Source: a bacterium (GTDB lineage Bacteria; Zhuqueibacterota; QNDG01; JAFGCO01). From it: a stretch of 64,000 nt of DNA. The notes beneath the pieces are model-generated. The model searched no databases and was not told where the DNA came from. It saw only the letters and a program-made list of their open reading frames with translations. The stretch lies in assembly GCA_016932575.1 (NCBI GenBank), contig JAFGCO010000065.1, positions 1 to 64,000 of the forward strand, given 5' to 3'. Of this stretch, positions 24,384-45,125 are shown piece after piece; positions within the stretch are counted from its first letter, which is position 1, and each line of letters opens with the position of its first letter. A program made the translations under genes and the position numbers.

Positions 24384-24417
24384 AAAAAAAGCTGCCCGGC
24401 ATTTCATTCCGGACAGC
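24384..24417 (-). terminator. Intrinsic terminator ending the 20-kb surface-protein operon
   Basis: On the minus strand GCTGTCCGG, a loop, CCGGGCAGC (one mismatch), then seven T's. It sits 35 bp beyond the last gene of the minus-strand run 44.8-24.4 kb. Confidence 0.8.
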
Positions 24418-24451: not shown

Positions 24452-25600
24452 TTAAAATTCATATCGGAATAAAATCGCCACATCCATTCCTTCGATATTT
24501 AATTTTTTTAAATCCTCGGCACTGATTCTTTGACCAACCATATATTTTATATAAAATTCAATGAATGTGTTATATGAAAATCGGTATTCTCCCCCAAATC
24601 CTCCTCCCAGTGCTTTGGCCCATGATAATCCTGCTTCGTTTTCACCGTAAAAACGTCCGTCAACTAAAACATTTGCACCGCCGCCCTGTATGTGAAAAGC
24701 CTTCCATATAATATTGAAATCCAGCTTCGGTGAGTTGCTGTTAAAAACTTCTTCCTTGAATAACTGGCCCTGAAGCGCATAATTATTCGTTTTAGAACGA
24801 TAATTTAAAAGTGCCCAGAGATAATATTCATCATAGCGATAAAAATAACCCAGATTGATTGTCATTTTTGTCCCTGACTGAAATACATATTGAGGACTGT
24901 TGTATTTGTCTTTTTGGTAAAATGTAAAAATACCATCCAGCATGACCTTCATATCTTCATTAAAACCCAGGTCGAGGCCAAGATGCACATTGGTTTCATC
25001 TCCCGGATCATAATAGCCATCGACTTTATTTCCCTGATTGGCCCAATTTGCGCTGTAAATGGGAACAAACTTTCTTCGATACAAATAAGAGGCGCCGCCG
25101 CCAATGACGACATTATCTGAAAAGGAATGCGCAATAAGGGCACCGATTTTACCCTGAAATCCCTGACCATAGACAGGGGTTTTAAAATTGAATATGTTGA
25201 GATTTAAATGGGTTGATAAATAATATTCCTTATAATTCAGTCTTGTCTTACCCAGCGGAACACCAATCCCTCCTATGATAAGCAGCCGATTATCCCATAA
25301 AAGCAGATTTCCCTGCAGGTAGGGATCGGAAAATCCACCCATACTGGTATGACGCATATCCCAATCTGTACGTGCATATGCATAATCAAAATTTAAATTA
25401 AAATGACTGTTAACCGGAATGACCATATGCACAGGAATGGTCACCTGCATAATGGGTTTTTCAATGATAATTTCTTCCCGCCATATTTGCAGACAGGGGC
25501 CTGTTTTAATAAATCCCTTGGGAGCGCTTGGAATAATTTCTTCCTGCGCTAAGACATTTTGAAACATGAACAGTATGATTAAGATGCAAATGCGTTTCAT
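24452..25600 (-). CDS. Outer-membrane beta-barrel protein (cassette 2)
   Basis: This protein of about 382 residues has a signal peptide (MKRICILIILFMF...VLAQ) and alternating aromatic/hydrophobic strands throughout, ending in IEGMDVAILFRYEF. The terminal aromatic residue is a typical outer-membrane barrel ending. It is a paralogue of the barrel at 34643-35743: both contain a G(I/V)G(V/L)P(L/T)GKT segment, YGQG, YDPGDE plus Asn-Val, DGRFYGENE and a closing EGxD. The ATG at 25600 has AAGGA 8 nt upstream; an earlier start at 25633 has none. It follows the giant protein by 43 bp, third in the repeated lipoprotein-giant-barrel unit. It may be a porin, or an anchor or export partner for the giant. 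Confidence 0.75.
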   Translation of the reverse strand: MKRICILIILFMFQNVLAQEEIIPSAPKGFIKTGPCLQIWREEIIIEKPIMQVTIPVHMVIPVNSHFNLNFDYAYARTDWDMRHTSMGGFSDPYLQGNLLLWDNRLLIIGGIGVPLGKTRLNYKEYYLSTHLNLNIFNFKTPVYGQGFQGKIGALIAHSFSDNVVIGGGASYLYRRKFVPIYSANWANQGNKVDGYYDPGDETNVHLGLDLGFNEDMKVMLDGIFTFYQKDKYNSPQYVFQSGTKMTINLGYFYRYDEYYLWALLNYRSKTNNYALQGQLFKEEVFNSNSPKLDFNIIWKAFHIQGGGANVLVDGRFYGENEAGLSWAKALGGGFGGEYRFSYNTFIEFYIKYMVGQRISAEDLKKLNIEGMDVAILFRYEF

Positions 25601-25643
25601 CTCAATTTTCCTTGTCTTATAAACGATGGTCATCGTTAAAATG

Positions 25644-28600
25644 CTATTTTAAAAGAATCATCTTTCGTGTCGCTACTTTTCCTGCGGCTTTCAACTTATA
25701 TATATAAACTCCAGAAGCCAGCTTCATGCCCTGGTCATTCGTTCCATCCCATATCACCTCGTGGTGACCGGTTCCACAATCGTTTTGAGCGATCTTTTTC
25801 ACCTGCTGCCCCAATGCATTGAAAATGATGATTTCCACGTCTGATTTTCGAGGCAGACTGTAATAAATCTTAGTCGCGGGATTAAATGGATTGGGCGAAT
25901 TGGGATAAAGCTTAAATACGGCCGGTTCCAGTGAAATGCCATCACGATGCTGCTGAACAAAGGCTTCATTTCCGGCAATAATTTTAAAGGAACGCCTGGT
26001 GCTTTTCTTTTTGGTATTAATTGTGTAAATCTTTTTCATCTGGAGATCCGCAGCCACTTCATTTTCGGGATCAATTAAATAAGCCTGCCAGTTGTCCGGC
26101 ATGGCCTGGATGAATTGCCAGGAAATCTGATACTTATGATTTTTTGACGGACAGTCCACATCAATATTCCAGACATGCCCCTCTGAATTGCTTTTACGAA
26201 TATCAGCCATATATTTTCCCGGCTGATATTCCCATTCTGAATGATCAAAATAAAGCGATGTGCATTCAAAAAAGGAAGGCGGTGGTTCCGGTCGATCATA
26301 AGGATCGTACATGATATGGGCTTTCGGCCGCATTCCGGCATAATTATAGACATCGCGGCCGTAGTCATCAGATGCAGAAAATTGAATGAGCCAGGCATTT
26401 TCTTCCAGATTTTCCAATAACCGGTATTCAGAAACCTTCGATTTGCTCAGGGAGGATTCACGAGGCTGAATGTAGAGATATTCAGATTCATCCCCGGAAT
26501 GATATACCCAGTATCCTACCCATGGCTCCAGAACCTGAATATCAGGTTCATAACCGTCTTGTCCCCATTCATAAGGCGGTGTAATAGTGCTGGAAGAGAC
26601 AGCACAATCCGACCATTTTACATTAAAATTATAGGGATTGCCGATCATATTCCAACCTGGTGCCAGCTCTTTTTCAAAACTGTTTGCTGTAGAAACAGTC
26701 TTGCCGGGGCGGAGCTGGAAGTTCCGTTCAATATTACTGACAAGCCAGTATGCCCGTCCGGGAGGCAATGAGAAAAATACCGCATTGTCGTCAATAATCT
26801 GATTACCTTCGCCTCTTTTGGCATATTCAATATAATCATCATGAAAAGGATCCAAAGCATACAGGGGGCTTTTTGTGGGATCCCACCAGAATAGGCGCCA
26901 TTGAAACGGATCATACTCAGAAATAGACACATCCACAAATACAGTATCCGGATCGTAGGTATCCAGTGAAAACGGAACAGAAAACATAGCAGCAAGCTGA
27001 TATTTTCCCAGTTCATTTCTCTGTGCCGCGTAATGCATTTGCGTGATCATAGTCTCAAATCGGATCTGCATAGAAAGCGGATTGTGCACTGCATCCACAA
27101 CCGGATATGTATATGTCCGTTGCGTTTGCGATACCATATGGATATAGTATTCGAGGCCGCGTAATGTCACACTGTCCGCAGGAATATTGGCCTTAAAAAC
27201 AATATCACTTTCAGGAAAAGCAGATATCGAATGGTATTCTTCCATACCCGCCTGCCTGTAAAATATCTTTACTGATGACGGATTGACTTCATAAGGCACT
27301 TCGATGGCTATAGTGACCGGATCTCCCGCTTTTGGATGGGCTGGTGTCGGAGTGAGTATTTTTATCCCTGCATCATGAGGCATATTAAAACTCCAGACTT
27401 CACGATCAATGTTTGAAAATCGGAATTCATCCAGATATCCCTGAAAATATCCGGAATAGCCTCCGGTTTTTCTCTCTGCTGCGCCAAGGAGCAGCGGCCG
27501 GACTGCATCTGCTTTTGGCTGGCCAATATCCCACTGTTTATTCCAAATTTCGATCCAATCAATATACATGCTTCCGGAACGGGTATGTGAATCATATACA
27601 AAAGCCATATGGTGCCAGGCATTATCATTGACACGGGGGCCTGCGCCATCGAAGCCATTGACAATTAAATGCCCGGTACTTCCAATCTTTATAACGAAAT
27701 CACCCTGCATCAAAGAATCCTGATATCCCTTGCCTATTAAAACCTGTGAAACCGTATCGGTCCTGAAATAGCACTCTAAAGTAATACTTTCCCTGCTCAA
27801 ATCATTCTGAAAAATATCCTTCCCGGGAATTTCAATGCGATCATTGTATCCGTCAAACCGGACACCGGCTGTATAAAATCCCTTATTGGGTTCGATCCGT
27901 GCGCCATTCCACAGAAACCCCTGAAATTTATTATCTGAGTAATCAAGCACTGTATCACCTCGAGATTCATTAAAATGATAAAGCGCCAATGTATACCGAT
28001 CGGATGTATATTCTGCTGCACCCGGATTCTTGTAACCATATCCTTCTAAAGACAGGTTCACAGTGGGTGAATTCTCTGCATTACTGTGCAATGTAAACTG
28101 ATATTGGTAATTAATCGCTTCAAGTACCGGTTTAAATGAAATTGGCAGATACATGGAATCAAGACGATCCACTGAGAATGACTTTAAACTGTCCGGTATG
28201 CTGAAAATAGTATCCGCTCCTGTAACATGATGTATTTTCAGCGACTGATCCCCAAGATTCTTGATCAGTACATCCAGGGTGCGTGTAAAGCCCAATTTCA
28301 CCCCTTCATAATACAACTGATAGGAGGATACGTTAATTTGAGGCGGAACCACATTCAGATCCCACGATTCCCGATTGATATTGGAAAAACGGATTTCATC
28401 CACGTACCCATAGAATTGCCGCGCATTGTCATAATCCGCTCCGAAATGGATTGTCCCGTCTCCAAGATCCAATAATTCACCCAAAAAAGCCAGGCTGTCT
28501 TGTACAATGCCGTTGATCATAAACCGCACCCAGTTGGCATCAAGAGAAACAGACACGTGATACCATTGATTGACATCGATCTCATCCAAAGCATACCCGT

Positions 28601-31600
28601 GCAGGCTGAAACCATCGTTTTGCTGATTCCAGATTCGAGCCATAATTTCAGGGCTTTCACCGCTGGTAAAAAGAATTTCATACTGTTTCACGCCATCGGT
28701 TTCCTGCTGTACAAGAATGCCCCCATTGTCAGGTTTCACTGAAAGATTAAACCAGGTTTCAACAGTAAAATAAGAACCGACCTTTCCCGTAACTGCGGTT
28801 CCGGGAATCTCAAGAGAACCTCCGTAAAATCGAAGTCCCTTCCCAAATCGGCCGGTATCCGACAGTGCAACATTGCCAACCAGCTTGCCATGAATGCCAT
28901 TTCCCGACGAATCCGCCAGAGTCTCCCCGTCCTCTCCAATTTCATCCAGATGGAAAAGTGCGAGAGTAAACTCATCTGAAGAATACGCATCCTGGCTGAT
29001 CTCCGGAATGCCTTCGCCATATAGATTGACATTCCTTTGCGGCCAAAAAGGATCGTTTGTAAAAAATGTGATTTTCCCTGAGTGTTCACCCAGATCATGA
29101 GCCGTATATGTAATCCGCATCCTCCGGCTCTCTCCGGGAGCCAGTTGAAATCCGGACAGGTCCGTTTTAAAATAGTCATCCAGATCGATCGCCACCGTAT
29201 CAACCACCAGTGTATCGATACCCAGATCATTGTTCACAGTTAATTCGAGAACCCGGCTCGATCCCAGATATACTTCCCCAAAATTTAATTTGGAGGAGGA
29301 TACGGTGATCCTTGCCATATCCACATTAAATTCCCAGGTTTGCCTGCCAATGCCGGAAATTCGGACTTCGTCAATATTGCCATAAAATGCATTGTTGGTT
29401 ATCCAGCTCCCTCCAACCAGCAATGAAAGCGTATCCATAATGGCATGGGTTTGTTCATTCGCAATGGTACCGACGAATCCGGCTTGATCAATTTGGTTTC
29501 CGTTGATATAAAGAAACAGGCTGTCCACACGCTGAACCAGTGCCACATGATACCATTGATTGATTTGAATCGGACCCAAGTCTGCGCTATTCACTTCAAA
29601 AAAATCCTGGGATCCATTGTATATTCGTCCAATCAGTCTTCCACCATTGTCTATATACAGATCAAACTGATTGGCTGACGCACTTCCCCGGCGCATTAAA
29701 ACACTCTGCGTAAATGGAAATTGATCCATCCTGAACCAGCTTTCAACAGTAAATCCGCCCCACTTTGATTCTAATACATCATCCGTCTCCGGACGAACAA
29801 CCATCCGTTCATCATCCGCTTTAAATTTAAGAGAGTACCCTTCTCCAAATTTCTTCTGATCACCGTCATAACTCACCCCTCCCTGAAACGCACCGTCCAT
29901 TCCCTGACCGGAACTATCGGAAGCTCCAGAAAGTAAATAGTCGTCGAAATGATATAATCCCAACGTAAAATGATCTGTCTCATACCGGCCTGCTTTAAAA
30001 CTGCTGACAGCTCTTCCTTTAATCGGTACGTTAAATGTAGGATAGGTCGGATCTGAATTGACAATGGTAATGATATGTGAATCTGCATGATCCGATTCCT
30101 GCTGTGGTGAATAAGTAATCCAAAAAGTAGTAGACGTATTGGGAGATAAGGATATGGGGTAACTGGCATCAATATTCACTGAACTGTAATTGGAATATAT
30201 ATTTTGCACAGTAAGCAACTGTGAGCCACGGTTTCGGATAGTGACAGGTACTGTGCGGCTCTTCCCAAACAATACATTACCAAATTCGATTGTCGAAGGC
30301 TGGAGTGATATTCTCGCACGGTTTACATGAAATTCCCACGGCTGCCGGTCAATGATTGAAAGACGAATTTCATCAATCAGGCCGTTAAATGGCAAATATC
30401 CTGTCGAAGTTGCACCGATGGCCATGGGTTCTGAGTTTTGCAAACGCAATTGCCCGGATACATATGTCGCTGATACTTTATCACCATTTAAATACAGACG
30501 CAGACTGTCTGTGTCCCAGGTCAAAGCCGCATGATACCATTGACCGACATTCAGGATGGACATCGAACCGGACGTCACTTGATGTACTGTGCCATTTTCA
30601 TCCCAGACACTTCCTATCAATCCTTTTTCGTTTTGATTGTCCAATGCCAGTTCGACCTGGCGGCTGGTGTCATTGCCGCGGCGCAGCAGGATGGCATATG
30701 TCTCAGGTTTTTGTGCGATATTAAACCAGGCTTCAATCGTGAAAGGAGTATCATAAAAATTCAGCGCACTGTGATACGGAATGTATATATAATCCGATTC
30801 CCCATCCAGATCAAGCGCTTTATTCAATCCGGTACGTGAATCCGCCTGATCAGGAGCTCCTTCGACAAGGGCATCTTTTTCATAAAGCGATGCATCCTCA
30901 ACCGATGTAGACACATCACCGTCATCCATATGATAAAGACCGACTGTAAATTCATCCCGCTCATAAGGTCCCTCACTCACCGGCATGGAAATGCGTCCCT
31001 GCAATGTTATCTCAACCGTTGATTCATCGGGATCATTTGTGTATATATACGCCTTATCCACCTGGGTCGGATCAGCAATATCGGCTGTTGGAGAAAAACG
31101 AACCACAATCTGATGTGTATCTTCGCGGGCAACAGAAAAGGCGGTTTGACTAAAGGAAAACAGCGGGTTCAGCCACTGGATATTCTCAATCCGAAGCTGA
31201 GTGCTCCCCTGATTAATAAATCTTAATATTCTCGGTCTGGATTCTCCCGGCGGAACCGGTCCGAACTCCAAAGGGCTGGAAGGAGTAATTGAAATATCCG
31301 GCTGAACGGCACTGCTGAATACATAGAGCCCGTCATTTCCGTCCGCCATGACAACATACCCCTTATAAGGAGTAATGTCAAGAGCCAGAGGCGTCTCCTG
31401 GGTTTCATAATAACCTGTCTTTAAAAACACACCCGGCGTCGAAAAATCATATACAAGCAAGCCAAATTCTGCATCTGTAAGATAAATTGTTTTCTCTTTA
31501 ACATAAATATCTGTGATCATACCGCCGGTAGCCACCCGGTTGACACTGTTGGTTTGTATATTCCATATAAGAAATCCGTATCTGCCATTAGCAACAAACA

Positions 31601-33209
31601 CTGTATCGCCGACAATATCCAGGCTGAAGGCTTCGATGTTATCCGTTAATGAATTGATCTGAACAGGGGGGCCCGGCAGATCGATAATATTATACACATA
31701 CACACCGCTGGAATCTGCCAAAAAGGCTCGATTGTCATGAACGATAATTTTCCTGGCAGATCCCGGTGTATTAATTTCATGCTTTTTTGTAAAATTAAAA
31801 CCACTGTGCTCAATGACCATCATTCCAAGACCGCCGTAGGCCAGGAGTGCATAACTGCTGCCGTCTTCATTATAAATGGCCGCATCGTAACATGTATCGG
31901 TTTCGGAATTCCAGTATTGACCATACGATTCTGGAGAAGCAGGATTATCCATATACACAACATGCAGACCTTTCGATCCGTCCGCCAGGAATGCGAAACC
32001 GTCCTGAACCTGAACGCTTCTGACTTCACCGGGTGTATTGTATTCACTCAACAGTTCCAAATGATCGAGAGTCTCTTCGTCATAATTCAGGTCAAATATT
32101 TTAAGTCCGGCATGCCCTGCTGCCACGTAAGCATAATGCTCATCCGTATCAACGTCATAAGCCAGATCAGAACTGGGCAGGATGCTCTCTATACTGATTT
32201 GGGAACCTTCCTGGACATCAGCCAGAACCAATCCGTTAGGACCGTCACATACATAAGCCGTATCTCCTTCCACCCAAATACGGTTCGAGATACCGTCAGT
32301 ATCCAGGGGCGGAAATGGCAGAATTTGATTTTCAACAGTGACGGGATTCGAAACATCAATCGGTCCCCACACTCCATCATGTCCGCATACAATATATATA
32401 TCACTTCCGGAATGACGCATATCAATCACATTCAGGGGTTGCGAATAATACCATCGGCCTTCTTCTTTTAAGTCCGAAGGATCCTGAATATCAATGATTC
32501 TTAATCCTCCCCACCCTGTTGCCGCATAGGCCATGCCGCCGATTGCAATCACATTCTGTGCCTTTGGTTCTGGCAATTGATAGCCGCTGAAAACAGAAGC
32601 AAAATCCAGTGAATCGAGCAAAACCGGGGTTTCTTTGACTTTTGTGCTAATCATAAACAGGCCGGATATGTCGGCAGCGACCAGTGCGAGCGTATCACGG
32701 ACCACCCAGACATCACGGGCAGGCCTGCTGGTCGCATATCTTCCCTGAATATAAGGATCATATATATTATTGACATTGATAATCAACATTCCCTGGGAGC
32801 CCGCAGCCACATATGCATGTTTGTAATTTTGACTCACGCCGGAAGCATATCCCCAGGTTCCAATTTCACGAATACGGGTCAGCGTCTTGTTTATTGTATC
32901 CATCTGTACGATCTGAAGACCGGCATGACCGCAGGCTACATAAATATCCTGTAAATTGGAAACCACCCAAATATCCTGTACAGCAGCTGGTAAAAGCAAT
33001 TCCTTATAAAACTTCATTTCATGATTATCATGTTTATCCAGATATACCTGCAGATAGGCACCGTTGCCAACAAATGTAAAATCACCGCGCCGGAAAATGG
33101 CCTCACACCGGCCTTCAGCCCATCGGGCTTCACGTTCCACATTATCTTGACCCAATGCCCATTGAACACACAATGACAGGCTTATAAGTACGAAGATTTT
33201 TTTAAGCAT
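25644..33209 (-). CDS. Giant LVIVD-propeller/LamG surface protein (cassette 2)
   Basis: The protein has about 2521 residues. After a signal peptide (ends ALGQ) comes a long run of LVIVD-type propeller blades (about 25-640; for example YVAAGHAGLKIFDL, FVANGRYGFLIWNI). Then there are four modules, each a 'choice-of-anchor D' Ig-like domain (about 100 residues, LxFGxVxxGxSR) plus a LamG/concanavalin A-like domain (about 210 residues, with FTIEAWF, NQWYHVAL, LYLNG and a closing GxIDEIRLS...RQPWEFN). Module starts are near 640, 965, 1300 and 1625. An Ig-like domain (about 1950-2045), a conserved block with WNMIGNPYNFNV and EPWVGYWVY, and a C-terminal sorting-type domain (about 2430 to end, YPNSPNPFNP ... 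ASGVYIYKL ... RKMILLK) finish it. The ATG at 33209 follows GAGGAG. Export probably uses a type IX-like or related route, which is inference. Confidence 0.85.
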   Translation of the reverse strand: MLKKIFVLISLSLCVQWALGQDNVEREARWAEGRCEAIFRRGDFTFVGNGAYLQVYLDKHDNHEMKFYKELLLPAAVQDIWVVSNLQDIYVACGHAGLQIVQMDTINKTLTRIREIGTWGYASGVSQNYKHAYVAAGSQGMLIINVNNIYDPYIQGRYATSRPARDVWVVRDTLALVAADISGLFMISTKVKETPVLLDSLDFASVFSGYQLPEPKAQNVIAIGGMAYAATGWGGLRIIDIQDPSDLKEEGRWYYSQPLNVIDMRHSGSDIYIVCGHDGVWGPIDVSNPVTVENQILPFPPLDTDGISNRIWVEGDTAYVCDGPNGLVLADVQEGSQISIESILPSSDLAYDVDTDEHYAYVAAGHAGLKIFDLNYDEETLDHLELLSEYNTPGEVRSVQVQDGFAFLADGSKGLHVVYMDNPASPESYGQYWNSETDTCYDAAIYNEDGSSYALLAYGGLGMMVIEHSGFNFTKKHEINTPGSARKIIVHDNRAFLADSSGVYVYNIIDLPGPPVQINSLTDNIEAFSLDIVGDTVFVANGRYGFLIWNIQTNSVNRVATGGMITDIYVKEKTIYLTDAEFGLLVYDFSTPGVFLKTGYYETQETPLALDITPYKGYVVMADGNDGLYVFSSAVQPDISITPSSPLEFGPVPPGESRPRILRFINQGSTQLRIENIQWLNPLFSFSQTAFSVAREDTHQIVVRFSPTADIADPTQVDKAYIYTNDPDESTVEITLQGRISMPVSEGPYERDEFTVGLYHMDDGDVSTSVEDASLYEKDALVEGAPDQADSRTGLNKALDLDGESDYIYIPYHSALNFYDTPFTIEAWFNIAQKPETYAILLRRGNDTSRQVELALDNQNEKGLIGSVWDENGTVHQVTSGSMSILNVGQWYHAALTWDTDSLRLYLNGDKVSATYVSGQLRLQNSEPMAIGATSTGYLPFNGLIDEIRLSIIDRQPWEFHVNRARISLQPSTIEFGNVLFGKSRTVPVTIRNRGSQLLTVQNIYSNYSSVNIDASYPISLSPNTSTTFWITYSPQQESDHADSHIITIVNSDPTYPTFNVPIKGRAVSSFKAGRYETDHFTLGLYHFDDYLLSGASDSSGQGMDGAFQGGVSYDGDQKKFGEGYSLKFKADDERMVVRPETDDVLESKWGGFTVESWFRMDQFPFTQSVLMRRGSASANQFDLYIDNGGRLIGRIYNGSQDFFEVNSADLGPIQINQWYHVALVQRVDSLFLYINGNQIDQAGFVGTIANEQTHAIMDTLSLLVGGSWITNNAFYGNIDEVRISGIGRQTWEFNVDMARITVSSSKLNFGEVYLGSSRVLELTVNNDLGIDTLVVDTVAIDLDDYFKTDLSGFQLAPGESRRMRITYTAHDLGEHSGKITFFTNDPFWPQRNVNLYGEGIPEISQDAYSSDEFTLALFHLDEIGEDGETLADSSGNGIHGKLVGNVALSDTGRFGKGLRFYGGSLEIPGTAVTGKVGSYFTVETWFNLSVKPDNGGILVQQETDGVKQYEILFTSGESPEIMARIWNQQNDGFSLHGYALDEIDVNQWYHVSVSLDANWVRFMINGIVQDSLAFLGELLDLGDGTIHFGADYDNARQFYGYVDEIRFSNINRESWDLNVVPPQINVSSYQLYYEGVKLGFTRTLDVLIKNLGDQSLKIHHVTGADTIFSIPDSLKSFSVDRLDSMYLPISFKPVLEAINYQYQFTLHSNAENSPTVNLSLEGYGYKNPGAAEYTSDRYTLALYHFNESRGDTVLDYSDNKFQGFLWNGARIEPNKGFYTAGVRFDGYNDRIEIPGKDIFQNDLSRESITLECYFRTDTVSQVLIGKGYQDSLMQGDFVIKIGSTGHLIVNGFDGAGPRVNDNAWHHMAFVYDSHTRSGSMYIDWIEIWNKQWDIGQPKADAVRPLLLGAAERKTGGYSGYFQGYLDEFRFSNIDREVWSFNMPHDAGIKILTPTPAHPKAGDPVTIAIEVPYEVNPSSVKIFYRQAGMEEYHSISAFPESDIVFKANIPADSVTLRGLEYYIHMVSQTQRTYTYPVVDAVHNPLSMQIRFETMITQMHYAAQRNELGKYQLAAMFSVPFSLDTYDPDTVFVDVSISEYDPFQWRLFWWDPTKSPLYALDPFHDDYIEYAKRGEGNQIIDDNAVFFSLPPGRAYWLVSNIERNFQLRPGKTVSTANSFEKELAPGWNMIGNPYNFNVKWSDCAVSSSTITPPYEWGQDGYEPDIQVLEPWVGYWVYHSGDESEYLYIQPRESSLSKSKVSEYRLLENLEENAWLIQFSASDDYGRDVYNYAGMRPKAHIMYDPYDRPEPPPSFFECTSLYFDHSEWEYQPGKYMADIRKSNSEGHVWNIDVDCPSKNHKYQISWQFIQAMPDNWQAYLIDPENEVAADLQMKKIYTINTKKKSTRRSFKIIAGNEAFVQQHRDGISLEPAVFKLYPNSPNPFNPATKIYYSLPRKSDVEIIIFNALGQQVKKIAQNDCGTGHHEVIWDGTNDQGMKLASGVYIYKLKAAGKVATRKMILLK

Positions 33210-33254
33210 AGGTTGTGTTCTCCTCAAAATTCAAAACCATTATCCCGCCTATAA

Positions 33255-34628: not shown

Positions 34629-34642
34629 AAAAACCTCTGCAT

Positions 34643-35743
34643 TTAGATTCTAAACTTCAAACTTGCCAAAATATCGATTCCTTCCACATCAATTTCCTTA
34701 AATGCCTTGATGCTGCCCATCAAATATTTCACATTGATTTTTCCTGTAACCGTCGGGCTGAATTGCTGCTGAGCTCCCATGCCAAAGCCGTAAATTGAAG
34801 CACTTCCGAACCCGTCTTCATTTTCGCCATAAAACCGGCCGTCCCACAACACTGAAAGCCCACCCCTGGGCCATTGTTTAAACTGCCATAATCCATCGGT
34901 CTCAAATTGGTCGCCGATCGTTTTTTTCGAAATTTTGGTCTGATTGGGAACAAACAGATCGTTTTTTCCCCTTTGGCGGAATCGCAGGGCGCCATAAATA
35001 AATCCGGATGTCATTTTGTAGGCAATTGATGTATTTATCAGAATTTTGTCTCCTGCATCTATAAAATCCTCACCCCCCAATTGATCGGCACTGTATATGG
35101 AGTAAACAATATCAGTGCTCCATTTTCCCTGTTTTCCGAGAGGCACACTGATTCCGGCAACCACATTGAATTCATCTCCGGGATCATACTCCTGATCAAT
35201 ATATTTCACCCATTGATAAGGGGACTTGATCATATAATTGAGCCCCAATCCGATTATCGAGCCTCCCTCCATGGGAAACGCCATTCCCCCGCCAGCTTTA
35301 AAGATCAATCCCTGACCATAGGAAGGCAGTCGGAATTTAAGAGCATTCTCACTCAATCCCTGCACCAAACCGAATTCTTCAGCACTCAGTTCTGTTTTAC
35401 CTGTGGGCAGGCCGATCCCGATATTGAACATAAAGCGTTCGTTTGCTGCAACATAGGTCGTTCGAATCCAGGTGTCTGACAGTCCGGAAATTGTGCTGTC
35501 TTTGTATGAAGCGGTTGCCGGTGAATTTGAAATGTTTAAATACCAGTTGGGCGAAATCGGATAAAAGCAGACAATCGGTGCGACTGTCTGACGCAGCGGA
35601 TCATCCATATATTCATTTGTCCACTGTTGATAAGACAAACCGGTCGAGACAAATCCGCCGCTCTTCGGAGGAATCAACCCTTCTATTCCCAGAAGATAAG
35701 CCGGAATCAATATTAATAAAAATCCTTCTTTAAATTTATTCAT
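34643..35743 (-). CDS. Outer-membrane beta-barrel protein (cassette 1)
   Basis: The protein has about 366 residues: signal peptide (MNKFKEGFLLILIPAYLLG), then beta-strand-rich sequence ending VEGIDILASLKFRI. The motifs GIGLPTGKTELS, YGQGLIFKAGGG, EYDPGDEFNVV and WDGRFYGENEDG are shared with the barrel at 24452-25600. The ATG at 35743 follows AAAGGA. It is the third gene of the first cassette and is followed after 14 bp by the lipoprotein that opens the second cassette. Function is inferred only from the barrel character and its conserved place. Confidence 0.75.
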   Translation of the reverse strand: MNKFKEGFLLILIPAYLLGIEGLIPPKSGGFVSTGLSYQQWTNEYMDDPLRQTVAPIVCFYPISPNWYLNISNSPATASYKDSTISGLSDTWIRTTYVAANERFMFNIGIGLPTGKTELSAEEFGLVQGLSENALKFRLPSYGQGLIFKAGGGMAFPMEGGSIIGLGLNYMIKSPYQWVKYIDQEYDPGDEFNVVAGISVPLGKQGKWSTDIVYSIYSADQLGGEDFIDAGDKILINTSIAYKMTSGFIYGALRFRQRGKNDLFVPNQTKISKKTIGDQFETDGLWQFKQWPRGGLSVLWDGRFYGENEDGFGSASIYGFGMGAQQQFSPTVTGKINVKYLMGSIKAFKEIDVEGIDILASLKFRI

Positions 35744-35772
35744 AATGAGTCCTTTACAGTATGAACCAATCA

Positions 35773-36048
35773 TTACCCATATTTTTCTGGATAAAGAAGG
35801 GAATCAGTCAATATAAATATAGGTAAAATAGCAAATGACAAAACAACAATTCCAAATAAAGACCAAATTCTAAAATCCAATGCACAAAAGCCATTCATGA
35901 AATCGATGATAACGCTTGAAAACAAAACAAGAAGCCAAATATGAATGATCGGGCAATCTGATATCACCAAAACGCAAATAAAATTTTGTTTGTCATTTGG
36001 ATTTTTGTATTTATCTGTCATTTGGATTTTGTTTTTTTTATTTTTCAT
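35773..36048 (-). repeat. Repeat-derived spacer with a probably spurious 91-codon ORF
   Basis: The spacer between the first giant gene and its barrel contains the direct repeat TGTCATTTGGATTTT at 35991-36005 and 36016-36030. It also holds related 'CAAATGACA'/'GAATTTGGTCTTTATTTGGA'-like text that I know as a low-complexity dispersed intergenic repeat in many environmental genomes. An ORF fills it (hydrophobic C-terminal half, two possible membrane helices), but its protein sequence is simply a reading of the repeat, and I see no Shine-Dalgarno. I treat it as non-coding, with a small chance that it is a real membrane peptide. Confidence 0.6.
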
Positions 36049-36116
36049 ATAATATTGTTATTTTTCCCCGTCTGTCCAGTGATAAATTAAAGACATAGCT
36101 AAACGAGTGACAGGGA

Positions 36117-39100
36117 TCATTGAATCAGAATCATTTTTCGAATGGCTACACGACCCGGATACTCCAGCCGGTAAAAATAAACACCGCTGGAAACCCGTGT
36201 TCCGCGATCACTCACACCCGACCAGTGCAATTCATATTCACCTGAAGTCTGTTCTTCATTAACCAGTTGAGTGACCCTCTGTCCAAGCATATTAAATATG
36301 CTGAGACGGACACGCCCGCTTGCCGGCAGCGTGTATCGGATGGTGGTTTCCGGATTAAACGGATTCGGATAATTCTGATAAAGATGAAATGCAATGGGAG
36401 CAATGACATTTTCCACCTGCTTTTCCACATATTCCGGCAAACCTGCAATACACTGAAATTTGCGGACATTCGGTGTATCCTTTCCGGTCACAATGGCATA
36501 CTCATTTTTCGATATCATGTCGATAACCACGTTCTTATCTGGATCCACGAGCCGAACCTGCCAGTCTTCCGGCATGGATTGATGCAATATCCATTCGAAT
36601 TCAACTAAGGATTTTTGCAGACGCGTCTCAACAACAACGTTCCAGGTGTATCCTTCATGATTGATCTCTCGTATGTCGGCAGCATAGGTTCCGGGATGTT
36701 GTTTCCAGTCCGAATGATCAAAATACACGGAAATATAGTCTCCCATGGGCGGCGGTTCTGCACGATCCCGAAGGTCCCATGCTTCCATTGCATCATGCCG
36801 GACGCCAAAAAAATTATCCAGGTCTTCGGCTGTTTCCGTTCTCGCTGAAAGCTGCCATACCCAGTCTGTTTTTATCATTTCATAAACAATGCTTCCCCTG
36901 ACAGGTGCTTGTTTTGTCAAAGCTGCCGGTTCCCTTGGCGGAACATACAGATCCTGATAGGTCTGTGAAGCATTGTATATCCAATACCCGCCCCACGGTT
37001 CAAATACGGGCCAGTCGAGCCTGTATCCCTTGCCGTCATAATAATACAGGGTCTCAAGAGAATCAGAAGTAAGCGCACAGTCGTTCCAGTTCACCTGAAA
37101 TGCAAACGGAGAACCGATCATATTCCACTGCGGCCGGATATGATACCGGCAGGGTGTTTCCGTGGATACCGAATATCCGGCACCGACATTCCAGCTTTTT
37201 TCACTTGCGGATATCAGCCAGAATGCCCTTCCCTGATCAAACGAAAAAATAAGGCTGTCCGCATAGGAAAGGGTGTCGTCATACTCGCAATACATGGTAT
37301 CTTTCCAGGTCAGGCAGCGCCATTTATACGGATCCCATGATCCAAGGTCGTCTTCCAGCACCGCTCCGGCATTGACATCATCCAGGTCTCCGGGAACGGA
37401 TATCATGGTATATTTTTTTCCCGGCAGGGTTGTATCAGCCATCAGTGCGTTAAATCTTACCTGTTTGGTCAACGGTCGGTTCACAGGATCATACAGCGGG
37501 TGAGTATAGGTCTCACCGGAAACCGTCATTTCTACATAAAATTCCAATCCTCGTTCCGTTACTGACGGTGCCGGAATCTCGACACTGTACTGGGTGCCGG
37601 TATCATCCCCTGCGACAGGTGTGGCCTGAAGGGTCTGATAAGACCGCTTTCCGCCCTGCCTGTAATGCAGCCATACCTCCCTTCCGGCTTCACCCTCTGA
37701 TGCAGGCAGGGTGATATCAACACTCTTAGGATTATTTTTTCTTGCATTTCCACTGATGGAGGCAAAAATACCTGTTCCTTTGAAAATCAAATCCCATGGC
37801 TGGCGCGCGATACTGGATATCCGGATCTCATCCATCTGCCCCTGGAAATATCCGGTTCTTTGGTTGGCTGCTGTTTCTCGAACACCGAAACACAGAGGAC
37901 CGGAATTGCTGATATCTGTGTCGCCGGCTTCCCATTTACTTTGTATCTGGATTTCACCATCCAGATACAGAGTGCCACGATGATTGGTCGTATCGTAAAC
38001 AAAGGCCACATGGTGCCAGACTCCGTCCGCCACATAAGCGGTTCCCTTGCCAAAACCATGAAGAGACAACAGACCATTTGTATCGATGGACAAACCGTAA
38101 TTGGCACGGTTATCTCCGCCCCGATACGGATCTTTGAAGAAAATCACCTGATTAAGTGTGTCTGTCTTAAAAAAACACTCGATGGTAAATGGTTCTGATG
38201 CCATATCGAAACGTAATCCTTCCGCATCATTCACAATGGCATAATCACTGAAGCCGTTAAATTCAAGCCCGCCGTCAAAATAGGCAGAGGCTGTCCGGCT
38301 GCCGTGCAGTGTGCCATTATATTTACCGGTGGCGTCTGCAACTGTATTGGCCGCGGCATCGCAATGATAGAGCGCAATCGTGTAATCATCCAATGCATAA
38401 GGTGCTTTTGGACGGTAATCAATCCCGGCCGCAGTTAATACGATCTCATAAACAGGCATGTCCGGGTCATTACTGTGAATGCGAAGTGTGTCCTTTACGC
38501 TGACTGCTGTTTGGGGCACGAACCGTACTGTAACAGTAATGGTCTCATTCACCGTCAGTGTGTCGTGATCCGGACTGATTTCAAAAACGGATGTTCGGGT
38601 TGTCATACTGTTGATTATGAGCGGAAGAGCGCCAAAATTGGAAATTGCAAAGGTCCGGCTGCTGTCGCTCTCGATAAAAACGGTTCCAAAATCCAGTTGT
38701 TTGGTTGCAATTGCCAAATTTGGAATTCCGACATTCAATTCTTCAGGCTGCCGGTCGATATTTGAAAACCGGATTTCATCGAGATACCCGTTGAATCCAC
38801 GGCCTGATCCATAAGCTCCGCCCATGGCCAGATCTGCCTTCGAACTGCGCAGGTTCCCGCTGAAGTCCGTTGAATCCACAATCACTCCATTCAGGTATAA
38901 CCGTAATTTATATCGGTCCCAGGTCACGGCCATATGATACCATTTTTCAAGATCCATCTCAGAATCAGGCGGGCCAAATAGTGAGAAAACCTTATTGTTG
39001 GCGGCATAAAATCGCACCACCAGTCCTTTCCCGGTGCTCAGCGTGTCATTGTACAGCACTTCGTACTGTAAATCGGTTCCTGAACCGCGCCGGAAAAGCA

Positions 39101-42100
39101 CATAGTCTTTATTCGCCGCCGGTTTTCCTGCCAGGCTGAACCAGGTTTCCATACTGAAAGGTGTGTTTGTATAATCGAACAGGGTATGATAAGGAATCCA
39201 AATCCAGCTGGTGTCTCCTGTGAAACGGAGGGCCGAAGCACCGTATTTTTTATAAAGTGTATTCCATGAAAGGCCGAGCCCTCGAAAATAACCGATCAGC
39301 CCGTTCCCGGAAGCGTCAGGAATCGAATCCATATCCACAGTCCCGTCCAGATGCCACAGACCGGATGTATAAATATCCGGCTCATAGGCTGCCAGACTGA
39401 TGGACTGAAAACCGACGCCTGAGAGCGGAATGCGGACTGTCGGTCGAAACAAATCGCTCGAGTGAAGGGTCAGCGTATCCCGAAAAGTCCGGACAGCTGA
39501 CGGTGTAAATCGGACCCAGATTGTACGGCGTCCGTCAGACGTTAATTCGAATTCCGTGTCCGAAATGTCATAGTGATTTGTTTCTGTAAACAGACTGTCG
39601 ACCGTCAGGGGGCCTTCTCCGTTGTTTCTTATTGTCATATAATAATATTTGGATTTTCCCACATAAACACTTCCGAATGCGGCACTGCTGACTGTCGTTG
39701 AAATACGTCCCGTGCTGATATTAAACTCCCACGGCTGGCGTTCCAATGCAGACAGCCGCATTTCATCCATAACACCGTGAAAAGGATGAGCCAATCCAGC
39801 ATCGTTGCCAATAGTCGCCGATATCACACCTGAAGGATACGGAACAGTCATCTGTTTCTGATCTTCAAGATTGCCGTTTAAATAAAGCTTGAGTGTACCA
39901 CCCATGGTCAGTGCCGCATGATACCATTGGTCCCTGACCAATGGTGTTTCTGTATTTGACAGAAGCGTATCGATTTTCTGAACACTTTGTGATGACAGTC
40001 CCATCAGACGATTTTTATTCACGCTTAATTCATAGATAATGCGGTCCCCCTCTGCCAGCCTGAACAGGACAGCGGTTCCTTCCGGAATGGCATTGAGCTT
40101 AAACCAGGTTTCAATGGTAAATCCCTGCCATTTGTCAAATGAAGGGAACTGACCAATGGATTCCAGATTGATATGGACAATATCGTTTTCATTAAAAATA
40201 AGCCCCTGATCAAACTTCCCGTCATCCGCTTTGGTGACCGTTGCACCGGTTACCGTACCATCCATCAGGCCATAGTCCGATTCATCCTGCAGAGTCGCGC
40301 CATTCAGTGCATCCATATGGTACAGTGCATAGGCATAATAATCAGGAGAATAAGCGGCCAGGGGAGTGGGCTGAATTCCCGTTCCGAGAACCGGAAGTGA
40401 ATGCGGACTGTTGACCGCATCGGTCTGCAATTTCAGTGTATCATAAATTGTAGTATAAGCGGCGGGTGTAAATCGAACAACAATATAAGCGGTTTCTCCC
40501 GCTGAAATCCATTGAGGCAGGTACAGAGCAGAAAACCGTCCTGTGTTGCAGGTCAATTCGCTGGCATACACCGCTGTGGAGCCGGTGTTGCGGACAATCA
40601 TGGACAAAGTCCGGCTTTTCCCCAGAACAACGTTTCCGAAATCCAGTGAATCGGCATCGACCTGCAGCTCTCCGGTAAAATCCGCCTGAAGATAATAGAC
40701 ACCGCCTTCACCGTCGGCCACCACCACAGTATCATCAACCACATCCACTGCATAACTGGTGCCGGCTGTGTGATACGATCCGACCGCATCAAGACTTTCC
40801 GGATTCGTCAAGTCAATCAGCCGAATGGTTCCCTGCCCGTCGGCCACGACTGCGATATCGCCGTGAAAATCCACATCATAGGCGTACCCTTCCGTATCAA
40901 TTTGATCCGAGGGCGTGATATTTTCGGTATTTGAGACATTTAAACCGAGAAGCCCGTTGGATCCGTCGGCCGCATAAATGATATTAGCGCCGGCTGCCGG
41001 AACGCCAATTGATTGAATTTCACTCTCATTGTCATAGGTGCCTGTAATTGTGTTTGTATTGATATCGAGCACCTTTAAACCGTCTGTACCTGCAGCGATA
41101 TAAACGCGGTTCGACCGTTCATCAGCAGTCACACCGATGGCGTCAAATCCATTGATACCCTCAATCAGTCCTTGATCGACCGGTTCAAGACTGTTGCTTA
41201 TATCCACAACACGAATACCTGAAGTGCCTTCGGCCACATAGGCATTGTCGCCAAAAATCGTGACATCAAGCATTTCGTTCGCAGTCTCAACCGTTGTAAT
41301 CTTCGTTGCAGTAGCGGGATTAGACACATTATAAAAAATCAAACCGCCTGTACCATCGGCAACCATCAGAACATTCCCGTCGAGAGCCAATCCCATGGCA
41401 TTCTGGGTGTTCCTGTGCGCATATATCGTGATTTTTTCATCATCAAGATGCGCATGATTGAGTATCCATAATCCGGATTCACCCCCCGCTACAAAAGTGG
41501 CCTCAGGGCTGAAAAGAACATCCATCGCCTGACCGCCGGATGTGACAGAATCAACCAGGTCAGGAGGAGCAACTGCCACATCAATTTTTTTCAAACCTGA
41601 ATTTCCTTCAGCCAGATAGACATAATTTTGATCAATATACAGAGACAAGGCGTCTCCGCCTGTTTCGCGTGATGTTTTTTCCGTCATGGTGGTTAAATCG
41701 ATGACCCTCAATCCGTATCCCTCATCAGAGAGATAGGCAGTTTCCGCGCTCACATCCACCGCTATATCACTGAGGCTGACTATCTCGGGCTCTGCGATCC
41801 ATTGACCGGCCACGTTGATATTTTCCGGATCAGTGATATTAACCGCCAGAACACCTTGATTTCGATCAGCGACAAAAGCAGTGGTTCCGCGGACTGAGAC
41901 ACCATAAGCGGATCCTGGAGTATCCGCCGTATCGAGCGCTGCAGGACTGGAAGGACTGGATATGTCAACCGCAACCAATCCCAGGGCATCCACCGCCAGA
42001 TAGGCATAATCACCCGAGACGGCCACATCCTGTACAGGAGATGAAAACTGTAAATATCCCGCAGGATCCAGTGTGTTTTCAATCACTTCGATGATATAGA

Positions 42101-42503
42101 ATCCGGACTCGCCGTCCGCCACATAGATACAGCCATCTTGATAGGCAATCCGGCGGGCCGAGCCTTCCGTATAATAATGCCCGAGTTCGTAAGGTGAAGT
42201 AATGCTCGACCGGTCCAGCATATAAATACCGATGTCTTTGACTGCCACATAAATTTTAAAAGATTGATAATAAATATCCTGAATCAATCCGGGAAATTCA
42301 TATCTCGAATAACGGCCATCCGGATTGGTGGCATCCAAAATATCGAGATAGCTGCCGTTGCCCATGTATAAAGCATCCGCAGTGGCTACGACCGATCGGC
42401 AGGGACCACTGGCCCATCGGGCGAGTAAAGATAAATTATCAACCTGCTGCGCCAGCAATGACATTGAAAACGCTGATAATACAGCAATTATTTTCCTTTT
42501 CAT
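36117..42503 (-). CDS. Giant LVIVD-propeller/LamG surface protein (cassette 1)
   Basis: The protein has about 2128 residues with the same plan as the giant at 25644-33209. A signal peptide (ends SLLAQ) is followed by LVIVD propeller blades (about 25-608; YVAEGTSGIRVVDISN is a model blade). Then come three anchor-D plus LamG modules (starting near 612, 933 and 1263; LamG closings such as MDEMRLSALERQPWEFN), an Ig-like domain (about 1583-1680), and the block WNMIGSPFAFQVNW ... EPWGGYWIY (about 1790-1850). A stretch with YFDHSDWKQHPG and a C-terminal sorting-type domain (about 2040 to end, YQNYPNPFNPETTI ... SSGVYFYRL ... IRKMILIQ) complete it. It has one anchor-D/LamG module fewer than its paralogue. 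GGGAG lies 5 nt before ATG 42503. LamG domains bind sugars or proteins, suggesting adhesion or polymer capture. Confidence 0.85.
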   Translation of the reverse strand: MKRKIIAVLSAFSMSLLAQQVDNLSLLARWASGPCRSVVATADALYMGNGSYLDILDATNPDGRYSRYEFPGLIQDIYYQSFKIYVAVKDIGIYMLDRSSITSPYELGHYYTEGSARRIAYQDGCIYVADGESGFYIIEVIENTLDPAGYLQFSSPVQDVAVSGDYAYLAVDALGLVAVDISSPSSPAALDTADTPGSAYGVSVRGTTAFVADRNQGVLAVNITDPENINVAGQWIAEPEIVSLSDIAVDVSAETAYLSDEGYGLRVIDLTTMTEKTSRETGGDALSLYIDQNYVYLAEGNSGLKKIDVAVAPPDLVDSVTSGGQAMDVLFSPEATFVAGGESGLWILNHAHLDDEKITIYAHRNTQNAMGLALDGNVLMVADGTGGLIFYNVSNPATATKITTVETANEMLDVTIFGDNAYVAEGTSGIRVVDISNSLEPVDQGLIEGINGFDAIGVTADERSNRVYIAAGTDGLKVLDINTNTITGTYDNESEIQSIGVPAAGANIIYAADGSNGLLGLNVSNTENITPSDQIDTEGYAYDVDFHGDIAVVADGQGTIRLIDLTNPESLDAVGSYHTAGTSYAVDVVDDTVVVADGEGGVYYLQADFTGELQVDADSLDFGNVVLGKSRTLSMIVRNTGSTAVYASELTCNTGRFSALYLPQWISAGETAYIVVRFTPAAYTTIYDTLKLQTDAVNSPHSLPVLGTGIQPTPLAAYSPDYYAYALYHMDALNGATLQDESDYGLMDGTVTGATVTKADDGKFDQGLIFNENDIVHINLESIGQFPSFDKWQGFTIETWFKLNAIPEGTAVLFRLAEGDRIIYELSVNKNRLMGLSSQSVQKIDTLLSNTETPLVRDQWYHAALTMGGTLKLYLNGNLEDQKQMTVPYPSGVISATIGNDAGLAHPFHGVMDEMRLSALERQPWEFNISTGRISTTVSSAAFGSVYVGKSKYYYMTIRNNGEGPLTVDSLFTETNHYDISDTEFELTSDGRRTIWVRFTPSAVRTFRDTLTLHSSDLFRPTVRIPLSGVGFQSISLAAYEPDIYTSGLWHLDGTVDMDSIPDASGNGLIGYFRGLGLSWNTLYKKYGASALRFTGDTSWIWIPYHTLFDYTNTPFSMETWFSLAGKPAANKDYVLFRRGSGTDLQYEVLYNDTLSTGKGLVVRFYAANNKVFSLFGPPDSEMDLEKWYHMAVTWDRYKLRLYLNGVIVDSTDFSGNLRSSKADLAMGGAYGSGRGFNGYLDEIRFSNIDRQPEELNVGIPNLAIATKQLDFGTVFIESDSSRTFAISNFGALPLIINSMTTRTSVFEISPDHDTLTVNETITVTVRFVPQTAVSVKDTLRIHSNDPDMPVYEIVLTAAGIDYRPKAPYALDDYTIALYHCDAAANTVADATGKYNGTLHGSRTASAYFDGGLEFNGFSDYAIVNDAEGLRFDMASEPFTIECFFKTDTLNQVIFFKDPYRGGDNRANYGLSIDTNGLLSLHGFGKGTAYVADGVWHHVAFVYDTTNHRGTLYLDGEIQIQSKWEAGDTDISNSGPLCFGVRETAANQRTGYFQGQMDEIRISSIARQPWDLIFKGTGIFASISGNARKNNPKSVDITLPASEGEAGREVWLHYRQGGKRSYQTLQATPVAGDDTGTQYSVEIPAPSVTERGLEFYVEMTVSGETYTHPLYDPVNRPLTKQVRFNALMADTTLPGKKYTMISVPGDLDDVNAGAVLEDDLGSWDPYKWRCLTWKDTMYCEYDDTLSYADSLIFSFDQGRAFWLISASEKSWNVGAGYSVSTETPCRYHIRPQWNMIGSPFAFQVNWNDCALTSDSLETLYYYDGKGYRLDWPVFEPWGGYWIYNASQTYQDLYVPPREPAALTKQAPVRGSIVYEMIKTDWVWQLSARTETAEDLDNFFGVRHDAMEAWDLRDRAEPPPMGDYISVYFDHSDWKQHPGTYAADIREINHEGYTWNVVVETRLQKSLVEFEWILHQSMPEDWQVRLVDPDKNVVIDMISKNEYAIVTGKDTPNVRKFQCIAGLPEYVEKQVENVIAPIAFHLYQNYPNPFNPETTIRYTLPASGRVRLSIFNMLGQRVTQLVNEEQTSGEYELHWSGVSDRGTRVSSGVYFYRLEYPGRVAIRKMILIQ

Positions 42504-42539
42504 AATCACTCCCTATAGGAATTATGAACTCATTGTTTA

Positions 42540-43982
42540 CTATGGACGATGCGGTGGCGGAGGCGGATCCGGCAAATACCACGGATCAACCGGATAATGA
42601 GTATTCGGCGGATCCGGAGGATCTGGCAGTCCTTTTGTTAAATCGGGAAACAGATCCGCCAGTTCACCAATATTGATTTCCTCGAAAGCTTCGCGAGAAT
42701 CACTGCCGGGGATAAATCCGGCATCCAGATACCACCCCATCTCCTGTAATCGATCAACAGGGCCGAGATGCACCCATGCATCATATCCCACATCTGTTGT
42801 TTGCGTCGACGGCCCGATTTTCAACAGCGTAATCATTTTCGTTTGCAGGGCCATCCAGTCTCTGTTTTGTGTTGCTTTGAAAACATCTGGTGAAGCCATG
42901 ATCTGATCGGCTAATATAAATCCGGGATCCAGCTTTACCGCGCTTGCCAGGTACTTTTGAGCCGTATCATACTGATCGTGGTCAAGAGCATACAGAGCGT
43001 ATGCGTAATTCAGGAAGGCCTGGAAATTGCGTGTCGAAGGCATTTTCAAACGGTTCATTTGAGAAGCTGTCAACTGAACACCCAAATCACTTAACACATT
43101 CAGAACAATTTTCTTTTGGAGCACAATAATATTCTTCAATTCTCCCTCAATATCCGATTCTTTGATATGGCGGACACCGGTAAAGGTCAACGTACGTTGA
43201 TCAATTTTCAGAATTCCGGAACCCCTCATCTCAATTTTTCCCTGAACCACAGTACCGACATTGAGCAATCTTTGCAGCTTTTCAACATGATCGATGTTCT
43301 CAAGATCTCGCGGACTCCATCCCAGGGCCTGCATTAACTGAACAGTTTTTTCTCTGGGCACCACCTGAAAACCGCCAATGCGATTAAAATCATGAATCAC
43401 CAGGCTGGCAATGCCTGCACTTATAATGGTTCCTTTTAAATCTGAGCCGGCATAATGAAAATCCAGAACAACCATGCGCTGACTTGAAAAATCCGCCTGA
43501 TCATCGGGTCCGCGTGCAGCCATCTTTTTCGCCTCTTGAATGTACTGCTGCTTATTTAAAAAATACAAACGCCCTTTCATCGCATCCCTCGCGGGATCGC
43601 CTTCGTTCAATGCCTTATAATTCGCATAAATCGGAAGGGCCAGTTTCGATTTTCCCTGTCGTTCATAGCACATCCCCAGATAAAAATAGGCGGCTCCGTA
43701 GGAAGGCGATTTTTGATTGACATAACGAAACACTTTGATTGCGCCATCCAGCATATTCATGTTTAAAGCGGAAATGCCAATTTTTGTCATGATCTCCGGT
43801 GAATATCGGATATATCGACTTCCATCTTGTGAACGAACTTGTAGAGAATTGATATAAGACTGCATTGCCTTTTGATACTCTTTTTGACTAAAATAGGCAT
43901 CACCCTGAGTCTGTTTAGATAGACCCGTGCATCCGAGCATCAAGGCAATTAGGCCTATACCTGCCCATCGCCAAATTATCAT
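42540..43982 (-). CDS. TPR/CsgG-like lipoprotein (cassette 1)
   Basis: This 480-residue lipoprotein (lipobox MLGC) has N-terminal TPRs (KQTQGDAYFSQKEYQKAMQ; DGAIKVFRYVNQKSP). A CsgG/FlgO-like domain follows (about 170-305: MVVLDFHYAGSDLKG, GIASLVIHDFNRIGGFQVVP, TVVQGKIEMRG), then a TPR-like pair (YALDHDQYDTAQKYLASAVKL). The tail is very Pro-rich (DPPDPPNT ... PDPPPPPHRP). The order of elements and several stretches (NExDP, DLGVQLT/ASQMNRL versus the paralogue's DQERNELLEIPT) match the lipoprotein at 33255-34628. AAGGAGGG precedes the ATG. The giant gene follows after about 36 bp. A polyproline tail of this kind would benefit from EF-P, which epmA in this window modifies. Confidence 0.8.
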   Translation of the reverse strand: MIIWRWAGIGLIALMLGCTGLSKQTQGDAYFSQKEYQKAMQSYINSLQVRSQDGSRYIRYSPEIMTKIGISALNMNMLDGAIKVFRYVNQKSPSYGAAYFYLGMCYERQGKSKLALPIYANYKALNEGDPARDAMKGRLYFLNKQQYIQEAKKMAARGPDDQADFSSQRMVVLDFHYAGSDLKGTIISAGIASLVIHDFNRIGGFQVVPREKTVQLMQALGWSPRDLENIDHVEKLQRLLNVGTVVQGKIEMRGSGILKIDQRTLTFTGVRHIKESDIEGELKNIIVLQKKIVLNVLSDLGVQLTASQMNRLKMPSTRNFQAFLNYAYALYALDHDQYDTAQKYLASAVKLDPGFILADQIMASPDVFKATQNRDWMALQTKMITLLKIGPSTQTTDVGYDAWVHLGPVDRLQEMGWYLDAGFIPGSDSREAFEEINIGELADLFPDLTKGLPDPPDPPNTHYPVDPWYLPDPPPPPHRP

Positions 43983-44804: not shown

Positions 44805-45125
44805 AATCGCTTTCAAAGGATTGTATCCACTTGGTTTAAGTTTTTATACGTTAATAAAATTATCCATCATTGTCAAGAAAATATTTTAAAACACAAAAGG
44901 CAAGTTCTGCAACATTTGTGCCCGAATCTTTCAAAATCGTCATATTTTGTCTATTTAATTGATATTACTGGACTTAAAAAGCATAAAACCATTGTTCTTA
45001 GCGTTTGACGAATTTCATTTTTGAATGAAAACCATTCAATCTCAGGAGAGAATACCCTTGAAAATGAAAGAATTTCATATTAATTTAAGACTATCAGATC
45101 TTATGATTATTGTAAGGAAAATATA
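44805..45125. promoter_or_regulatory. Divergent promoter region with overlapping inverted repeats
   Basis: This AT-rich region lies between the surface operon (minus) and the GWxTD gene (plus). At 45013-45039 two inverted repeats share a middle arm: TTTCATT/AATGAAA (45013-45019 with 45024-45030) and TTGAATG/CATTCAA (45021-45027 with 45033-45039). A third, ATGAAA-GAA-TTTCAT, lies at about 45064-45078. The arrangement could be operators or alternative RNA hairpins in the GWxTD leader. I cannot assign -35/-10 boxes with confidence. Confidence 0.4.

Follow-up and report, generated by a model that had tools for sequence, protein, structure and literature searches.

Two consecutive three-gene units lie on the minus strand of a 64,000-nucleotide stretch of bacterial DNA (hereafter the window), each encoding a lipoprotein (LIPO), a giant protein, and an outer-membrane barrel (BAR). 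Which of these genes form the conserved unit, and what the unit does at the cell surface, are the questions addressed here.

Organization of the tandem run

The original prediction placed six open reading frames on one strand in the order lipoprotein, giant, barrel, repeated once, and our analysis confirmed both their coordinates and their order (Table 1). Its view of the extent of the run needed one amendment: the six genes stand, but an additional gene, encoding a short CsgG-TPR protein, precedes them and is the first of the run. The claim that all three members are paralogous between the units was upheld, with 27% identity for the barrels (E 9e-48), 27% for the lipoproteins (E 2e-62), and 32% over ~1590 aligned positions for the giants (E 0). 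Genes were called as the longest ORF, which leaves start sites uncertain, and the annotated gaps of the six-gene run measure 30, 343, 14, 27, and 10 bp, in agreement with the short gaps and single repeat-filled spacer described before. In that spacer, ahead of BAR 1, a 25-bp tandem repeat with AAATCCAAATGACA occupies window positions 35985-36034; the motif is commoner in the window than in shuffled sequences, and the fold of the spacer was not significant (z -1.26). The run closes, as had been claimed, with a 9-bp-stem hairpin followed by a T-run, whose loop exceeds the limit of our hairpin scan and which is therefore outside the scan output. Divergent from the head of the run is a gene for a GWxTD-domain protein (45126-46403, plus strand).

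Table 1. Features of the tandem run in the window, listed in the direction of transcription.
Feature	Window position	Strand	Length	Remarks
Short CsgG-TPR protein	44106..44816	(-)	236 aa	Signal peptide; no clear lipobox; heads the run
LIPO 1 (P0006)	42540..43982	(-)	480 aa	Lipobox, TPR, LpoB/TolB-N-like domain (assigned by homology to P0003), TPR, Pro-rich C-tail
Giant 1	36117..42509	(-)	2130 aa	LVIVD propeller, 3 ASH + 3 LamG, C-module, type A T9SS CTD
Spacer, giant 1/BAR 1	35774..36116	(-)	343 bp	Contains 25-bp tandem repeat
BAR 1	34643..35773	(-)	376 aa	Outer-membrane barrel; start probably internal ATG
LIPO 2 (P0003)	33255..34628	(-)	457 aa	AF2 model, pLDDT 74.7
Giant 2	25644..33227	(-)	2527 aa	LVIVD propeller, 4 ASH + 4 LamG, C-module, type A T9SS CTD; start probably internal ATG
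BAR 2	24452..25633	(-)	393 aa	Start probably internal ATG
Intrinsic-terminator-like hairpin	~24391..24417	(-)		9-bp stem, 9-nt loop, then T-run; read from sequence

The giants are probably type IX secretion cargo

Both giants have hydrophobic N-termini and share one architecture: a signal peptide, an LVIVD propeller, ASH domains alternating with LamG domains, a C-module with a WNMIG block, and a C-terminal type A domain of the type IX secretion system (T9SS). The sorting-type C-terminus that had been proposed for them was borne out by TIGR04183, which scored 41.7 bits in giant 1 and 34.3 bits in giant 2 (cut-off 23), so that each pairs a signal peptide with this C-terminal domain. The NCBIfam scan gave no match of either giant to the type B CTD (TIGR04131) at E up to 0.1. 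The genome of the window encodes a T9SS core, namely SprA (contig C6, 97032-101261), PorU (916 bits), and PorV-family barrels; over a dozen PorV-family matches exceed the cut-off. Given the presence of SprA, PorU, and PorV, the giants are probably T9SS type A cargo.

SprA was found in 82/82 genomes of the phylum, probably candidate division KSB1. The T9SS has been called specific to Bacteroidota (PMC12618676, PMC7463736); its translocon here occurs in all 82 genomes of a phylum outside Bacteroidota. Our literature search for KSB1 together with type IX secretion found no paper. In the window's genome (G000), PorV-family genes adjoin genes with a T9SS-type tail at C6:44296-45507, C10:71966-73107, and C53:64339-66919, and may be cargo-specific PorV paralogues.

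LIPO has a predicted LpoB/TolB-N-like domain, and BAR matches no curated barrel model

LIPO consists of a lipobox, an alpha/beta domain flanked by two TPR arms, and a C-terminal tail that is Pro-rich and disordered. Its earlier description as CsgG-like holds only in part. Pfam CsgG matched LIPO 2 weakly (21.9 bits vs the 20.8 cut-off) and partially, over about positions 37-97 of 210, but LIPO 1 had no match, and the AF2 model of LIPO 2 is LpoB/TolB-N-like and has no pore hairpins. In that model, strands 244-252, 257-266, and 271-281 are joined by 4-residue turns (pLDDT >90 there), no transmembrane beta-hairpins are seen, and the top Foldseek matches of the alpha/beta domain are LpoB/TolB (TolB-N) and GNA1162, not CsgG. 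The PorE model NF052230 reached 13 bits on LIPO against a cut-off of 600, over the TPR part only, and Pfam gave no match to an OmpA-type domain. By comparison, the short CsgG-TPR protein at the head of the run matched Pfam CsgG at 65.4 bits and LpoB at 24.3 bits, in addition to TPR, and its gene adjoins LIPO or BAR in many relatives.

The AF2 model of BAR 1 is a 16-stranded barrel (pLDDT 79.6, pTM 0.75). No Pfam or NCBIfam family matched BAR above chance, a PDB sequence search found no family, and the fold search against the PDB returned generic barrels, a method that does not discriminate among barrels. With this limit, CdiB and FhaC, both barrels of two-partner secretion, came at or close to the top of the VIA-align ranking (Z 19.8 and 18.4); porins, CymA, and chitoporin scored Z 17-18, and BcsC and PelB Z 16-17. 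At BAR positions in the 82 genomes, TIGR03519 (PorP/SprF) gave nothing over its cut-off and no sub-threshold match was listed; PorP was likewise absent from the NCBIfam scan of both window BARs, and NF033709 (PorV) had 28 matches in the window's genome, none of them at its four BAR genes. By curated model, membership of BAR in PorP/SprF or PorV was rejected. Profile-profile comparison with hhalign gave a weak signal for BAR, 76% against PorP-like barrels and 59% against PorV, with 98% for PorV against PorP-like barrels. A SprF-like disulfide link was also rejected, as the periplasmic C-x-C tail is absent (0/86 BAR), and a Pfam scan of BAR members gave no match to the Slam barrel domain.

LIPO and BAR are the conserved core of the cassette

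The window's genome holds two further copies: contig C35 carries a third full cassette, whose giant of 1469 aa has Reg_prop in place of the LVIVD repeats, and contig C67 carries a fourth LIPO-BAR pair with no giant between. BAR occurs in 52/82 genomes of the phylum. We then called genes in 80 loci of relatives with profiles of LIPO, giant, and BAR; these loci were selected for holding BAR or LIPO, and the counts describe them rather than all genomes. LIPO lies directly upstream of 63 of the 87 distinct barrels, on the same strand. A giant or tail protein sits between LIPO and BAR in 25 of these 63 cassettes (type I), and the two genes are adjacent in the other 38 (type II); median gaps within cassettes are 15-27 bp. 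As for the remaining 24 barrels, 19 are cut by contig ends, three lie near a LIPO-like gene that is truncated or shortened, and two have none. Conversely, seven LIPO genes lack BAR in these loci: six reach, or come close to, the end of their contig or locus, and the seventh (L026) is followed by a BAR match that is not an intact ORF.

The giant behaves differently. Among the matches listed, 115 of 150 C-modules are not followed by BAR, whereas 21 of the 24 in the window's gene order are, again among the matches listed. Most type II cassettes have, directly after BAR and in the partner's place, a member of lipoprotein family X (31 members, some with CBM-, PEGA-, Big_2-, or fn3-type domains). 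Outside the phylum, as judged from 10 named loci and a further genome set, the gene immediately upstream of BAR is LIPO in L160, L161, and L162, and in L159 the two are close to each other. Two of these pairs (L160 and L161) belong to genome G282, listed as 100% complete, in which one SprA model gave no match at E 0.001. Because LIPO and BAR pair up even where SprA is not detected, and because many listed C-modules lack BAR, we conclude that LIPO and BAR form the fixed core, and that the giant is a co-inherited, optional partner. The tandem three-gene cassettes are a conserved module of an uncultured bacterial phylum, and our literature searches found no description of it.

The Pro-rich tail of LIPO contains PPxPP in 17/25 type I cassettes, both window LIPOs being examples, vs 1/38 type II cassettes. 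The single type II LIPO with this tail appears to be that of L024, a locus that the LIPO and BAR trees both place with type I.

The members are co-inherited and the duplication is old

In quick maximum-likelihood trees, in which the WIN_2 LIPO forms a long branch, both LIPO and BAR split into the window type (Ia), the C35 type (Ib), and mostly type II groups, and the trees of LIPO, BAR, and giant agree by cassette. Patristic distances correlate between LIPO and BAR (r 0.736) and between BAR and the giant C-end (r 0.789), and in neither comparison was the observed correlation matched by any of 5000 swaps of partners within genomes. The agreement between LIPO and giant was reached by 256 of 5000 swaps, and this weaker coupling is, on its own, no more than suggestive. 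Hence the predicted co-inheritance of three genes, each set serving its own giant, is supported as to co-inheritance, and serving or anchoring is the likeliest relation, but the trio is not an obligate unit.

The tandem pair of the window recurs in two genomes of another family (G010 and G011). Both window LIPOs group with their own counterparts (support 97 and 98), LIPO 1 with the upstream LIPO of G010 (97); the giant C-end of cassette 1 groups with its counterpart (99), and BAR agrees with less support. Since the pair recurs in another family and its copies group with their counterparts, the duplication is older than the family-level split (f1/f3), and both copies kept their partners. A recent tandem duplication was rejected on these trees.

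The cassette resembles, but does not belong to, known cargo-and-barrel systems

Although the original prediction knew of no named system with this composition, close analogues exist in PorE-PorP-PG1035 and SprF-SprB (PMC9143113, PMC12618676). In P. gingivalis, the TPR lipoprotein PorE, the barrel PorP, and the T9SS cargo PG1035 form one complex, and six porP-like genes of F. johnsoniae adjoin porE-like genes (PMC9143113). The cassette likewise encodes a TPR lipoprotein predicted to lie under the outer membrane, a barrel, and a probable T9SS surface protein; PG1035 has a type B CTD, however, whereas the window giants are type A, BAR lies outside the PorP model, and LIPO has the LpoB/TolB-N-like domain and scores far below the PorE cut-off. 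The second analogue comes from F. johnsoniae, where the gene for the cargo SprB directly precedes that for its carrier SprF and the cargo stays bound to the barrel (PMC12618676, PMC12635249). The window likewise has a gene for a giant, probable T9SS cargo followed directly by one for a putative cognate barrel; it differs in the type A tail of the giants, in the missing C-x-C tail of BAR, in its lipoprotein gene, and in that LIPO-BAR also occurs where SprA is not detected. Neither the PorP/SprF nor the PorV model recognizes BAR, LIPO falls short of PorE and of a CsgG channel, and the cargo is of type A rather than type B. The cassette therefore falls outside the named families, and we file it as a putative variant of cargo-plus-cognate-barrel modules.

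Two other systems serve as analogies only. PelB-PelC combines a 16-strand barrel with TPRs and a lipoprotein ring (PMC12141448), and BAR aligns to PelB with a generic Z of 16.1, but no polysaccharide genes were seen with the cassette, and its TPRs are on the lipoprotein rather than the barrel. Slam also pairs TPR and barrel in the service of surface proteins, and type II cassettes have a lipoprotein partner; in the cassette, TPR and barrel are on separate proteins, and some LIPO match only the generic TPR part of TPR_Slam.

A proposed role in surface docking

By analogy, the cassette probably docks or displays large proteins at the cell surface, using parts unlike the known ones. In the specific form that we favor, to which we give slightly less than an even chance, the run would contain two ancient tandem copies of a module for docking at the surface, comparable to PorE-PorP with type B cargo and to SprB-SprF; the likeness in composition and gene order makes a similar way of working most likely. 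Sec would deliver the giants to the periplasm, and their type A CTD would then direct them across the outer membrane through the T9SS that the genome encodes, a step strongly indicated because both the CTD and the T9SS core are present. BAR may then serve as a dock specific to its own giant, receiving or holding it at the cell surface, and LIPO, with two TPR arms around the LpoB/TolB-N-like domain, may bind BAR from below and brace it, the short CsgG-TPR protein being a likely accessory. The association of the PPxPP tail of LIPO with giants may count for this proposal, although it comes from one evolutionary split.

Several points weigh against docking. As most listed C-module proteins lack BAR, their export does not generally require it, and a general T9SS carrier role for BAR was rejected on this ground. 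Moreover, PorV ordinarily serves type A cargo and PorU anchors it (PMC12618676), so no further dock would be needed. The missing SprF-like C-x-C tail of BAR and the generic outcome of its fold search also count against docking. Finally, LIPO-BAR without detectable SprA and the 38 pairs with no giant between suggest that its basic job may be something else. It is possible, if on the unlikely side, that LIPO and BAR make up an outer-membrane display machine in two parts, distinct in kind and not dependent on the T9SS, into which varied partners (T9SS giants or X) are plugged. We consider it unlikely that BAR with LIPO is instead a dedicated carrier or translocon that exports its partner (the giant in type I, X in type II), in the manner of SprF-SprB or Slam, rather than a dock acting after export. 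The giant gene directly before BAR recalls substrate before carrier in F. johnsoniae (PMC12618676), X directly follows BAR in type II, the TPR arms of LIPO resemble those of Slam (though that match is generic), and CdiB and FhaC lead the VIA-align ranking; yet the barrel Z values are generic, PorV paralogues are plentiful, BAR is not PorP/SprF by curated model, and the listed C-modules without BAR weigh here too.

A channel for uptake or export of small molecules or glycans, with the giant or X as surface receptor or binding partner, is doubtful. The fold of BAR lies near porins, CymA, chitoporin, BcsC, and PelB, PelC lipoproteins cap PelB (PMC12141448), LamG, PEGA, or other binding domains occur on giants and some X, and LIPO-BAR is found without detectable SprA, but the barrel similarity is generic and no sugar, polysaccharide, or transport gene family travels with the cassette in the loci read. 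That LIPO is a CsgG-type outer-membrane pore exporting the giant is very improbable: Pfam CsgG matches 7/8 LIPO members scanned, but the match is partial in LIPO 2 and missing in LIPO 1, the 4-residue turns in place of transmembrane hairpins largely refute a pore, Foldseek favors LpoB/TolB, and the giants carry a T9SS signal; this candidate was rejected. Chance neighborhood or a recent, functionally unlinked duplication is scarcely credible, even though the C-modules and tails of giants abound in the phylum, because gene order is kept across many families and a few distant genomes, tree agreement exceeds within-genome swaps, and the tandem pair predates the f1/f3 split; for LIPO-BAR, chance neighborhood is refuted.

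The literature that we found gives no account of what keeps T9SS cargo on the cell surface in phyla other than Bacteroidota. If LIPO-BAR does dock such cargo, a different phylum would have solved display a second time with other parts, and partners could be predicted by matching dock families to cargo families; finding LIPO-BAR in a genome where SprA is not detected suggests an outer-membrane module that has yet to be named.

In four genomes, a gene with the FGE-sulfatase fold lies between LIPO and giant (L060, 15431-16621; L080, 2406-3551; L095, 14497-15636; L104, 12720-13862). The same fold is used by PorK, GldK, and GldJ of the T9SS and gliding.
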